Shown here: one piece after another, positions 20,823-32,095 of the stretch | Layout: each line of letters starts with the position of its first letter | How positions within the stretch are numbered: the stretch's first letter is position 1 | Virus record (IMG/VR): IMGVR_UViG_3300006033_000014 | Location: 1-34,585 of that record | Length of the DNA stretch: 34,585 nucleotides | Source of the DNA: a virus | Reading direction: 5' to 3' (one strand) | Position numbers and translations under genes: made by a program | The notes under the pieces: generated by a model | The model's database searches: none | Told to the model about the DNA's origin: nothing | The model's input: the letters and a program-made list of their open reading frames with translations, nothing else

Positions 20823-20991
20823 CCACCCAAAGCGCGGTAGACCGCCCAAGCAGGGCAGCAAGATGGTGCAGACCGGATTGTGGCTGTACGAAAACCAAAT
20901 CCAGTGGATCAAAGAAGAAGCTGCACGGTTAGGGATAACCGCCAGCGAACTATTACGAATCCTGATCGATAAAGCAATGAAGGATAAATGA
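20806..20991 (+). CDS. Ribbon-helix-helix protein with AT-hook-like N-terminus (ISL3 cargo)
   Basis: A 61-aa protein with GGAGG upstream. Residues 8-15 (PKRGRPPK) resemble an AT-hook, binding the minor groove of AT-rich DNA. Residues 21-58 (VQTGLWLYENQIQWIKEEAA, then GITASELLRILIDKAM) fit a ribbon-helix-helix DNA-binding fold. It is coupled to the transposase by ATGA. Its likely target is the AT-rich palindrome in the element's promoter, giving autoregulation of transposition; this is inference from arrangement. Confidence 0.75.
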   Translation: MLPKNDHPKRGRPPKQGSKMVQTGLWLYENQIQWIKEEAARLGITASELLRILIDKAMKDK

Positions 20992-22316
20992 CCGATCTTC
21001 TCAATCTTCCTTACTGGAACGTTCTGAAAGTTCAGGAAACCGACCTGAACTATGTCATCGATGCTACTTACGAGGTCGAGCCTGCTGGCTGCCCTCACTG
21101 CGGGTTCATGATCCGCTACGGACACGGCACGAAGGAAAAGCTCTTTATGGATACTCCCATCCACGGCAAGCGGGTAGGTATCCGGGCGATTCGCAACCGG
21201 TACAAGTGCCAGAACTGCGGGAAAACCTACATCCAGCCACTCCCCGATATAAACGAAGACCACTTTATGACAAAGCGCCTGGTCAGCTACATCGAACGGG
21301 AGGTTTTCAAGCGCACCTTTACGGCGATGGCTGCTGAAATCGGAGTGGATGAAAAGACAATCCGTAACGTTTTCAATGAGTACGTGGAGCGCGAGGAAAA
21401 GAAGCGGGTTATCCTGGCTCCTTACTGGCTGGGCATCGATGAACTGAAGATCGCCGGTGGGTATCGTGGCGTGTTCAGTAACGTCAAGGATCGCTGCATT
21501 CTCGATCTCATTCCAAACAGGAAGAAGGTGGAGGTGGTGAAGTTCTTCAAGAAGCTGCCTGAAAAGGACCGCGTGCAGCTCGTCTGCATGGATATGTGGA
21601 CGCCTTACAAAGAGATTGTGAATGAGTATCTTCCAAAGGCCCAAGTCGTGGTGGATAAGTTCCACTTCATAAGGATGGCGAGTGATGCACTGGAAGCTGT
21701 TCGGAAGGATGTTCGAGCTGAACTCACTGATCGCCAGCGCCGCCAGCTCATGCACGACCGTTTCATTCTTCTCAGAAGGAAAAGAGACCTGGAAGCGAAA
21801 GATCTGATCTTGTTGGATTCCTGGCTTGGTTCCTTCCCCCTTCTCAAAGAGACTTACGAACGCAAAGAGGAACTGTACGATATTTGGGAACTCAAAGACC
21901 GGAAAGAGGCCGAAAAGCAATATGCCGATTGGCAAACCAAAATCCCCGCTGATGGGCTGTTTGCCTTCCGGCCTCTTTTGACCGCAATGCAGAACTGGCG
22001 GAATGAGATTTTCGCTTATTTCGACCACCAGGCCACCAATGCCTACACCGAATCCCTTAACGGCCTGATGAAGCTGGCTAACCGCATGGGCCGGGGTTAC
22101 TCGTTCGAGGTCATCCGGGCGCGCATTCTGTATGCGCCGGAGAACGCAAAAACCACCACCCTCCGCCGTGGGATTCTCAGAGACCAGCAGGCCTACTACA
22201 TGTTTCCACCCGCAAGGCCACGCCCTGATTACTTCAGCGGTGTGAAGATTTCCACATTGGTGAGTGCAATTCGGAATGATCATTTCCTACCTATTTCCAC
22301 ACGTTATTCCGAATAG
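20988..22316 (+). CDS. tnpA: ISL3-family transposase
   Basis: A 442-aa DDE transposase, full length for the family (about 400-450). The zinc-finger region is Cys35/Cys38 and Cys74/Cys77 (GCPHCG and CQNCGK). A helix-turn-helix with AAEIGVDEKTIRNVFNEY is at 114-131. Catalytic acids are Asp151 in GIDELKI, Asp202 in VCMDMWTPY and Glu355 in NAYTESLNGL. It carries out cut-and-paste movement of the element with 8-bp duplications. The frame is intact, so it may be active. Its stop is 2 bases from the element end. Codon choice (AAG, GAA, CTG, CTC) differs from the surrounding phage genes. Confidence 0.95.
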   Translation: MTDLLNLPYWNVLKVQETDLNYVIDATYEVEPAGCPHCGFMIRYGHGTKEKLFMDTPIHGKRVGIRAIRNRYKCQNCGKTYIQPLPDINEDHFMTKRLVSYIEREVFKRTFTAMAAEIGVDEKTIRNVFNEYVEREEKKRVILAPYWLGIDELKIAGGYRGVFSNVKDRCILDLIPNRKKVEVVKFFKKLPEKDRVQLVCMDMWTPYKEIVNEYLPKAQVVVDKFHFIRMASDALEAVRKDVRAELTDRQRRQLMHDRFILLRRKRDLEAKDLILLDSWLGSFPLLKETYERKEELYDIWELKDRKEAEKQYADWQTKIPADGLFAFRPLLTAMQNWRNEIFAYFDHQATNAYTESLNGLMKLANRMGRGYSFEVIRARILYAPENAKTTTLRRGILRDQQAYYMFPPARPRPDYFSGVKISTLVSAIRNDHFLPISTRYSE

Positions 22317-28597: not shown

Positions 28598-28620
28598 GTC
28601 GCCAATAACCGAGGTGAATA

Positions 28621-30462
28621 ATGGCAGAAGAAAATCAAGAGCAGGTAACACAGACGGGAGGTGATCCTATCTCTATCAAGGCAGGTAGACGTAACAACGC
28701 CGAGGATAAGCGGCGCATACGAGAGATTAGGCAAGCCGCCCGTGTAATCGCGGGATTGGTGGACGAGATGGAGCCAGAGGACGAGGATGATGAGGATATG
28801 CCCGCAATGGACGCTGAAAAGACCCTGGTCATTCATGGCGGCGCAGTAAAGGCATTAGGCGATGGGAAAGTCGGCGGGTATCTAGTGCGCTACGGTTCCC
28901 CTACTATGACCGACTTGACTGGTGACTACTTCGACGCGCAAACCGACTTCGGCACAATTACGACTACCCCCGTACTCTACCATCACGGCTATGACGACCG
29001 GATCAAACTGCGCATTATCGGCAGTGGCACACTACGCGCGGATGACGTCGGCGTGTGGGTGGAAGCCCAACTGGCAATGCGTGACGAGTATGAACGGGCT
29101 ATCTATCAAATGGCCGAAGACGGCAAATTGGGGTGGTCATCCGGCACGGCGTCTCACTTGGTCGAGACCGAACGGATTGGCAACGCCTATCGCGTCAAGC
29201 GCTGGCCTCTAGGACTAGACGCGTCCCTGACCCCATCACCCGCAGAGCCGCGCAACAACGCGGTAACTCTCAAAGCGTACATCAACCCTAACCCTATCAA
29301 TCAAGAACACGAGGAACACATGACCCCTGAAGAATTAGAAGCCCTGATGTCATCCGTAGCAACGAAAGCGGTTGACACCTATATCAAAAGCGCCCCGGCT
29401 ACTGTAACCGCCGGAAGCGTAACCGTAACCCGCGATGAAGCGGATAAGCCTTTTGCAAGCGCTGGCGAGTTTTTGGCCGCCGTGAAAATGGCCGCTATTA
29501 GCCCCCGCAGTGAAGACCCGCGTTTGCGCAGTATGAAAGCGTCGGGCATGAACGAGACTGTGCCGTCTGACGGCGGCTATCTTGTGCAATCGACCCTTGC
29601 GACTACGATCCTTGAACGGATGTACTCGACTGGCAATATCCTCTCGCGTGTTGCGCAGGACACTGTAGGTGCGAACAGTAACGGGATGACCTACAACGCG
29701 ATTGATGAAACTTCTCGCGTTACTGGAAGCCGTTGGGGTGGATTGCAAGGCTACTGGTTGGCAGAAGCTGCAACCAAAACCGCGAGTAAACCGAAATTCC
29801 GTCAGTTGGAATTGAAATTGAAGAAAGTAGCCGCCGTAGCTTATGCCACTGATGAATTACTCGCAGACGCGCAAGCCCTGGAATCGTGGATCAATCGCAC
29901 GGTTCCCGAAGAATTGCGCTTCCTTGCTGAAGATGCAATCTACAACGGAGACGGCGCAGGCAAGCCGTTAGGCATTATGAATAGCCCCGCTCTTGTGACT
30001 GTGACCCGCGACACTGGCGCGGCAATCAAGGCCGCCGATATTCTCAACATGTGGTCTCGGCGTTGGGCTGGCGTGAATGACTATGTTTGGTTGATCAATC
30101 AGGACGCTATGCCTCAACTGCCTCAAATGACCATCGGCAACTGGCCTGTATTTGTGCCGCCCGGTGGATTGGCTGGCAGTCAGTACGGCCAGATGTTAGG
30201 CGCTCCCGTCATCGAAAATGAGTACAGCGCAAGCCTGAACACGACCGGCGATATTATGCTTGCCTCGTTATCGCAGTATCAGACCATCACGCGCGGGAAC
30301 ATCGAAGCCGCCTCTAGCATTCACGTTCAATTCCTGACGGACGAAACCGCCTTCCGGTTTGTCTATCGCATTGACGGCGCTCCCGTGTGGAATAGCCCCC
30401 TGACCCCGTTCAAGGGTTCGAACACTCAAAGCCCGTTCGTTGTTCTCGGTTCCGCAACCTAG
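28621..30462 (+). CDS. Fused prohead protease and major capsid protein
   Basis: A 613-aa protein. Residues 1-60 are a charged helical start. Residues about 65-215 are a U35-type prohead protease, with GGYLVRYGSPTMTDLTGD (85-102), the histidine of VLYHHGY (118-124) and the serine of LGWSSGTASH (170-179). Residues 234-613 form an HK97-fold capsid protein: a helical delta-like domain, a likely cleavage region before NETVPSDGGYLV, and late features such as NRTVPEELRFLAEDAIYNGDG-type text (shortened here) and LGAPVIENEYS. Fusion of protease and capsid in one frame is known but uncommon. An internal start at 29320 would also give free capsid protein. Confidence 0.92.
   Translation: MAEENQEQVTQTGGDPISIKAGRRNNAEDKRRIREIRQAARVIAGLVDEMEPEDEDDEDMPAMDAEKTLVIHGGAVKALGDGKVGGYLVRYGSPTMTDLTGDYFDAQTDFGTITTTPVLYHHGYDDRIKLRIIGSGTLRADDVGVWVEAQLAMRDEYERAIYQMAEDGKLGWSSGTASHLVETERIGNAYRVKRWPLGLDASLTPSPAEPRNNAVTLKAYINPNPINQEHEEHMTPEELEALMSSVATKAVDTYIKSAPATVTAGSVTVTRDEADKPFASAGEFLAAVKMAAISPRSEDPRLRSMKASGMNETVPSDGGYLVQSTLATTILERMYSTGNILSRVAQDTVGANSNGMTYNAIDETSRVTGSRWGGLQGYWLAEAATKTASKPKFRQLELKLKKVAAVAYATDELLADAQALESWINRTVPEELRFLAEDAIYNGDGAGKPLGIMNSPALVTVTRDTGAAIKAADILNMWSRRWAGVNDYVWLINQDAMPQLPQMTIGNWPVFVPPGGLAGSQYGQMLGAPVIENEYSASLNTTGDIMLASLSQYQTITRGNIEAASSIHVQFLTDETAFRFVYRIDGAPVWNSPLTPFKGSNTQSPFVVLGSAT
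29320..30462 (+). CDS. Major capsid protein from an internal start (nested product)
   Basis: The in-frame ATG at 29320 (residue 234 of the fusion) is preceded by GAGG with 5 bases between, a good ribosome site inside coding sequence. The product would be 380 aa, close to the 385 aa of HK97 gp5, beginning MTPEELEALM and containing the scaffold-like delta region plus the capsid fold. This would supply many capsid subunits for each fused protease, solving the stoichiometry problem of the fusion. It needs experimental proof. Confidence 0.7.
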   Translation: MTPEELEALMSSVATKAVDTYIKSAPATVTAGSVTVTRDEADKPFASAGEFLAAVKMAAISPRSEDPRLRSMKASGMNETVPSDGGYLVQSTLATTILERMYSTGNILSRVAQDTVGANSNGMTYNAIDETSRVTGSRWGGLQGYWLAEAATKTASKPKFRQLELKLKKVAAVAYATDELLADAQALESWINRTVPEELRFLAEDAIYNGDGAGKPLGIMNSPALVTVTRDTGAAIKAADILNMWSRRWAGVNDYVWLINQDAMPQLPQMTIGNWPVFVPPGGLAGSQYGQMLGAPVIENEYSASLNTTGDIMLASLSQYQTITRGNIEAASSIHVQFLTDETAFRFVYRIDGAPVWNSPLTPFKGSNTQSPFVVLGSAT

Positions 30463-31018: not shown

Positions 31019-32095
31019 ATGAACAGGCTTGCAATCGTAGGCAGTCACCCCGCAACACGCGAAAACGCCCCCTGGGACGATAAAGATATAACCATCTGGG
31101 TATTCAACGAAGCCCCACAAATGGATTGGTGCAAACGCTGGGATGCGTGTTTCCAGATGCACAATTCCGAGGTCTACACGTCCCCCAACAACATGACCCA
31201 TAAGGGACATTGGGAATGGCTACAACAGGCGCATGGTAAAACGATTTACATGCAACTTCGCGACAACCGCGTACCTGATAGCGTTACATACCCGCTACGC
31301 AATATCATCTCTGATTTACCCGCCGCGCAATTGCGCTGGTTTTCATCGACCCCCGCGTACGCCATGGCGCTGGCTATTCATTCCGGATTTGATGAAATCT
31401 CGATTTACGGCGTTGAGCTATCGAGTAATACCGAGTATCACCGTCAATTGCCTAACTGGTGCTACTGGTTGGGCGTGGCAATGGGCGCAGGGATTACCGT
31501 CAATATCGAGTCTGGCCAGGTGCATTACAAGGATTCGCTCTACGGCTATCAGGGAGAAACACAGTTACCACCCGAGACGTTCACGGAACGTGCTGACCGA
31601 TTGAAGCAATCATGGAATAAGGCGGACAGTGACATTACCGCAGTCAAGAAAAAGCTTGCACGCGCGTTGACGGATAAGAAGCATGAAAAAGCCATGGCGT
31701 TGATCCTCGAATTGCGTGACACTGCGCTTGCGGCATCTGAGTTATCCGGCGCATTGTCAGAAGCTGAACGCTATGGCGCACGCAATGACCCGATTAGCCG
31801 ACAGGAGTTTGAGCGTAGAGCGGCACAAGCGCAACGGGACGGCGAAGGCCACCGGGCGCGGATGTACCATGCAGGCGGCAAGCTTGAATACGTTTGGAAT
31901 ATCTACCTACAATCCGGCAACAGTACCGCATTGACGCAAGTCCGCGCATTTATTGACGAACAAACTCAAGCCGCGTTTGATTGCGGGGCGCATTTAGGAA
32001 TCTACCGCGAGAACATGCAGTACATGGTTGAGGTGGATCGTATCATTGGCGCGGCGGGTGGGGAAAAGACCCTGCAATCGTTGGAGGTGAAATAA
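31019..32095 (+). CDS. Rossmann-like protein in the head-tail operon (MptE/DUF115-like)
   Basis: A 358-aa protein. Residues 1-180 read as a Rossmann-type domain: RLAIVGSHPATRENAPWDD at the start, WDACFQMHNSEVYTSPNNM, FSSTPAYAMALAIHSGFDEI and SIYGVELSSNTEYHRQLPNW. Similar text appears in phage and bacterial proteins related to MptE/DUF115-type or sialyltransferase-like folds. Residues 190-358 are helical and lysine rich. It lies between the capsid and connector genes, an unusual place for an enzyme. It may modify virion proteins or have lost activity. No catalytic residue can be named. Confidence 0.6.
   Translation: MNRLAIVGSHPATRENAPWDDKDITIWVFNEAPQMDWCKRWDACFQMHNSEVYTSPNNMTHKGHWEWLQQAHGKTIYMQLRDNRVPDSVTYPLRNIISDLPAAQLRWFSSTPAYAMALAIHSGFDEISIYGVELSSNTEYHRQLPNWCYWLGVAMGAGITVNIESGQVHYKDSLYGYQGETQLPPETFTERADRLKQSWNKADSDITAVKKKLARALTDKKHEKAMALILELRDTALAASELSGALSEAERYGARNDPISRQEFERRAAQAQRDGEGHRARMYHAGGKLEYVWNIYLQSGNSTALTQVRAFIDEQTQAAFDCGAHLGIYRENMQYMVEVDRIIGAAGGEKTLQSLEVK

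Follow-up and report, generated by a model that had tools for sequence, protein, structure and literature searches.

A conserved internal start in phage protease-capsid fusion genes points to an in-frame nested gene for the free major capsid protein

Protease-capsid fusions have already been described (PMC5513430, PMC7302621), and a "protease-scaffold-capsid fusion" is common to small siphophages (PMC7302621). Such fused genes raise a problem of stoichiometry, since each of the hundreds of capsid subunits would carry a protease. The fusion gene described here lies in an IMG/VR virus record, the window being the whole stretch of 34,585 bases that was analyzed. A 613-aa ORF on the + strand (28621–30462) joins protease and capsid domains in a single uninterrupted frame, as reported in the first-pass annotation of this DNA. 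It stands in a block of head genes in the order terminase (24566), portal (25762), two unassigned ORFs, the fusion ORF and a head-tail adaptor (32095). A 358-aa ORF between the capsid and head-tail adaptor genes (31019–32095) matched nothing in Pfam or PHROG. The window also carries an ISL3-family transposase (20988–22316; PF01610, 8e-64) where the non-structural genes give way to the head genes, overlain by a 674-aa antisense ORF without a family match.

The C-terminal half of the fusion is an HK97-type capsid protein, matching PF05065 (E = 2.9e-44) and TIGR01554 (E = 1e-57) in profile searches. In a Foldseek comparison, the capsid part matched HK97-fold capsids in the PDB, the closest solved structure being that of the Rhodobacter GTA capsid (RcGTA, 6tb9; E = 3e-15). 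The HK97-fold domain covers residues 318–597 (29572–30411) and, in the predicted model, about 80 residues with predicted helices stand before the capsid core, forming a delta/scaffold-like N-terminal domain (29320–29571) with its first helix at residues 236–257. The N-terminal part of the ORF is a predicted S78-like prohead protease (residues 69–219, 28825–29277), a prediction supported by the relatives of the window protein, with 19 of 41 aligned sequences matching PF04586 at E ≤ 0.01 (best 4.3e-9); the window protein itself gave a sub-threshold match (E = 0.0098, 16.5 bits against a 21-bit cut-off). The protease half also gave tblastn matches to Salinibacter phages (about 7e-17), and a sequence search of solved structures returned no convincing match for the protease. 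His122 (codon 28984–28986) and Ser173 (codon 29137–29139), both on the + strand, fall inside the His and Ser motifs named in the first-pass annotation; they are invariant in all 41 aligned sequences and are likely to be catalytic. In the predicted structure, the protease is confident over residues 68–206 and is followed by a low-confidence linker until residue 235 (pLDDT <50 at residues 207–209 and 222–235), after which the scaffold helices start at residue 236. One Salinibacter phage (L003:2336–4882) encodes an 848-aa protein in which an S78-like domain is C-terminal, upstream of a separate capsid-looking gene.

Within the linker, which runs from residue 207 to an internal ATG (29239–29319), the sequence GAGG-AACAC-ATG (29311–29322) places a Shine-Dalgarno (SD) core, GAGG (29311–29314), 5 nt before an ATG that opens an in-frame product of 380 aa at residue 234 (putative free major capsid protein, residues 234–613, 29320–30462). 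The site is present as the earlier annotation had claimed, and so is the likeness in size to HK97 gp5 (385 aa) that it had drawn; the predicted delta-plus-capsid layout is also that of gp5. In HK97, however, the protease (gp4) and capsid (gp5) are encoded by separate genes, whereas in the window they are fused. The window site is not significant alone because a similar SD precedes 14 of the 213 internal in-frame ATGs in the window (6.6%), several of them stronger. Its predicted anti-SD energy is moderate (−5.9), compared with −9.1 for the SD of the fusion start (GAGGTG, 28611–28616). What is significant is where the site stands, between the two domains, and that it is conserved, as the relatives collected for comparison show.

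Simple protein searches that used only the window gave little, and relatives were gathered by scans with a capsid profile and a fusion profile. This yielded 72 fused ORFs (the window and 71 related sequences) on many contigs, on which ground an assembly artefact was rejected; 52 remained at an 80% identity cut-off, of which 51, including the window, were intact. L151, with an early end of its open frame, and L162, which is partial, were left out of the statistics. With the SD core defined as AGGA, GGAG or GAGG located 4–12 nt 5' of an ATG, all 51 intact non-redundant fusions were found to carry an SD-preceded ATG in the linker. Counted per ATG, an SD was present at 56/113 (50%) in the linker but only 22/450 (5%) in the capsid domain (Fisher, 9e-28), the corresponding control values being 20/154 in the protease domain and 57/1026 (6%) out of frame. 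At about 2.2 ATGs per linker, chance alone should make near 10% of linkers positive. The internal products of the relatives have a median length of 391 aa (5–95%: 376–416). Two fused loci held out from the analysis and found after the rule had been fixed (L181 and L182, from MAGs labelled Verrucomicrobiota and Opitutaceae) both showed a GGAGG-type SD at the boundary.

Because the linker peptide itself favors SD-like codons, synonymous codons were shuffled within each gene in 500 runs. An SD of at least 5 nt was observed in 39 of 51 fusions against 20.5±2.9 in the shuffled genes (maximum 29 in the 500 runs), and the mean SD energy was −8.14 against −5.31±0.34. At the 4-nt level, the shuffles still yielded 30.4 of 51, so that part of the SD-like signal comes from the acidic or lysine-rich linker peptides. 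The peptide preceding the Met varies between fusions (for example qeheehM, tmegheM, nvkegeM, ttkevkM and theeeiM), whereas the DNA remains alike and the SD persists. Low RNA structure at the site was also considered (−4.7 vs −11.3 kcal/mol) but was attributed to composition and dropped as evidence, as synonymous shuffles encoding the same peptide gave −5.1 kcal/mol.

The nearest relatives of the window capsid are a mix of fused and unfused forms, and capsid relatives of 61–66% identity are encoded by separate genes with an SD-ATG at the point equivalent to the internal start. L010, L011 and the rest of their group encode the S78 protease in a gene of its own, the stop of which is followed by TAGGGAGGAATNACAAATG. 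In L135 (3480–3540), protease and capsid stand in the same frame with AAGGAGG-TA-TAA-ACA-ATG at the junction, and the capsid must use this ATG because a single in-frame TAA separates it from the SD; L135 thus represents a natural one-codon difference between the fused and unfused states. In six further loci (L145, L147, L149, L150, L157 and L160), a capsid 61–66% identical to that of the window lies behind a separate ClpP-like protease gene, with PF00574 confirmed in Pfam for the proteases of L145 and L157, indicating that one protease family replaced another beside a capsid that retained its own start. The capsids of L010, L011 and L135 (S78) and of L145, L147 and L157 (ClpP-type) resemble that of the window in that an SD precedes the equivalent Met, at which they start, and differ from it in that the protease gene has its own stop in the former and belongs to another family in the latter. 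When the fused or unfused label was placed on the capsid tree, at least 16 changes were needed, at least nine of which were forced by supported branches. Two contigs in the collection carry two major capsid genes each; in L131 one of the pair is fused and the other free, and in L001 both are free.

Protease-scaffold-capsid fusions in actinobacteriophages are known from Arthrobacter (AM/AU/AN), Microbacterium (EE/EL), Rhodococcus (RRH1) and Gordonia (CW/DM) phages (PMC5513430, PMC7302621). As in the window, a single ORF encodes a maturation protease, a scaffold and an HK97-fold capsid, although these fusions share little sequence similarity with the window family. Most of those sampled also have an SD-ATG or SD-GTG at the boundary, as shown for Circum (residue 165), Gordon (241), Decurro (160), Barebow (173), McGonagall (276), BlueFeather (204), Noely (205), Adaia (162), Penoan (160), Rahul (307), Efeko (168), Pondwater (166) and RRH1 (274). 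In the Gordonia phages SallySpecial and EricDab, no internal start was recognizable at the capsid boundary, and those of Whytu and Idaho were weak. In two wider IMG/VR fusion sets of 43 representatives each, an SD-preceded ATG or GTG was present in the linker of 34/43 and 35/43 members, with linker ATGs enriched relative to those of the capsid in each set (Fisher, 2e-13 and 5e-8). Synonymous shuffling of the RRH1/Gordonia set gave 24 observed SDs of at least 5 nt against 10.5±1.9, whereas the Microbacterium set (lineage A5) showed no codon-level enrichment (25 against 23.4 expected). The pattern recurs in about 80% of members of these two divergent actinophage-like lineages, with real exceptions.

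Taken together, the conservation of the site, the codon shuffles and the starts of unfused homologues strongly support an in-frame internal start giving free capsid, and the window ORF is very probably an in-frame nested gene pair comprising the fusion and an internally started capsid. The fusion could instead be the sole product, with all capsid subunits freed by proteolysis and the internal SD and ATG incidental, as any S78-type protease would cut beside the delta domain anyway and SallySpecial and EricDab have no recognizable internal start before the capsid. This is considered unlikely given the conservation of the site in 51 of 51 fusions, its position, its codon-level enrichment and the free homologues that begin at the same place; in addition, one protease per capsid subunit would be expected to fill the prohead.

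The start might also be a relic of recently separate genes, left after loss of a stop codon and not maintained by selection. The repeated switching between fused and unfused states and the single in-frame stop that distinguishes L135 are consistent with such a history, but fused clades that comprise several divergent members all retain a strong SD next to a changing peptide, the SDs exceed those of the synonymous shuffles, and a relic start with such an SD would still initiate, making this explanation very improbable. A third alternative, in which the SD-like bases merely follow from a linker rich in Glu and Lys and the Met is there by chance, draws on the encoding of EE, KE and ED by SD-like codons and on the survival of the 4-nt core in 30 of 51 shuffled genes. 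It is hard to reconcile with the excess of longer SDs, with a suitably placed Met in every linker and with the enrichment in the unrelated RRH1/Gordonia lineage, and can be given hardly any credence.

In the favored nested-gene reading, initiation at 28621 would give a protease-scaffold-capsid polyprotein, and initiation at the internal SD and ATG (29320) would give the scaffold (delta) and capsid alone, equivalent to the usual HK97-type capsid precursor. Co-assembly of the two products into the prohead is possible because both share the capsid C-terminus, and the fusion would thereby anchor the protease within the shell. Once there, the protease may cut the delta domains between scaffold and capsid, free itself and leave a uniform mature capsid. 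Initiation at 29320, the ratio of the products, their co-assembly and the cleavage are all inferred. The first-pass annotation had further proposed that few fused and many free capsids are made. This ratio was not adopted because SD strength does not favor the internal start, the predicted anti-SD energy averaging −8.0 kcal/mol at the fusion start and −8.1 kcal/mol at the internal one, which has the stronger SD in 30 of 51 fusions. If free capsid is made in excess, the ratio must be set by a factor other than SD strength, for instance translational coupling or accessibility.

The mechanistic model is phage lambda C/Nu3, where nested in-frame genes give one product that joins protease and scaffold and a shorter one that shares its C-terminus, and the comparison made in the earlier annotation is apt in this "works like" sense. 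Herpesvirus UL26/UL26.5 has the same two-product layout, with nesting via separate transcripts. In both, the nested product is scaffold only, whereas in the window it would comprise scaffold and capsid, and the nesting of the capsid itself, compared with the scaffold of lambda C/Nu3, appears to be what is new. Many "protease-capsid fusions" of tailed phages, belonging to at least three lineages that are highly divergent, are probably in-frame nested genes of this kind, with capsid made from its own internal start. If so, two products would be predicted from genes annotated as one, and the conserved start would resolve the stoichiometry problem of the fused genes by a translational solution to the protease:capsid ratio that annotations have overlooked. 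The conserved start also shows capsid genes entering and leaving fusions without losing a start of their own.

No description of an internal capsid start in such fusions was found in the open-access full-text literature, although one may exist elsewhere, and no mention of it was found in the two papers that describe the fusion (PMC5513430, PMC7302621). The published comment that comes closest deals with an internal ATG in the Gordonia phage EpicDab, where the start lies before the protease and not before the capsid (PMC9671378). In SallySpecial and EricDab (L171 and L172), an N-terminal membrane-helix region is followed by an SD-ATG located just 5' of the protease domain.
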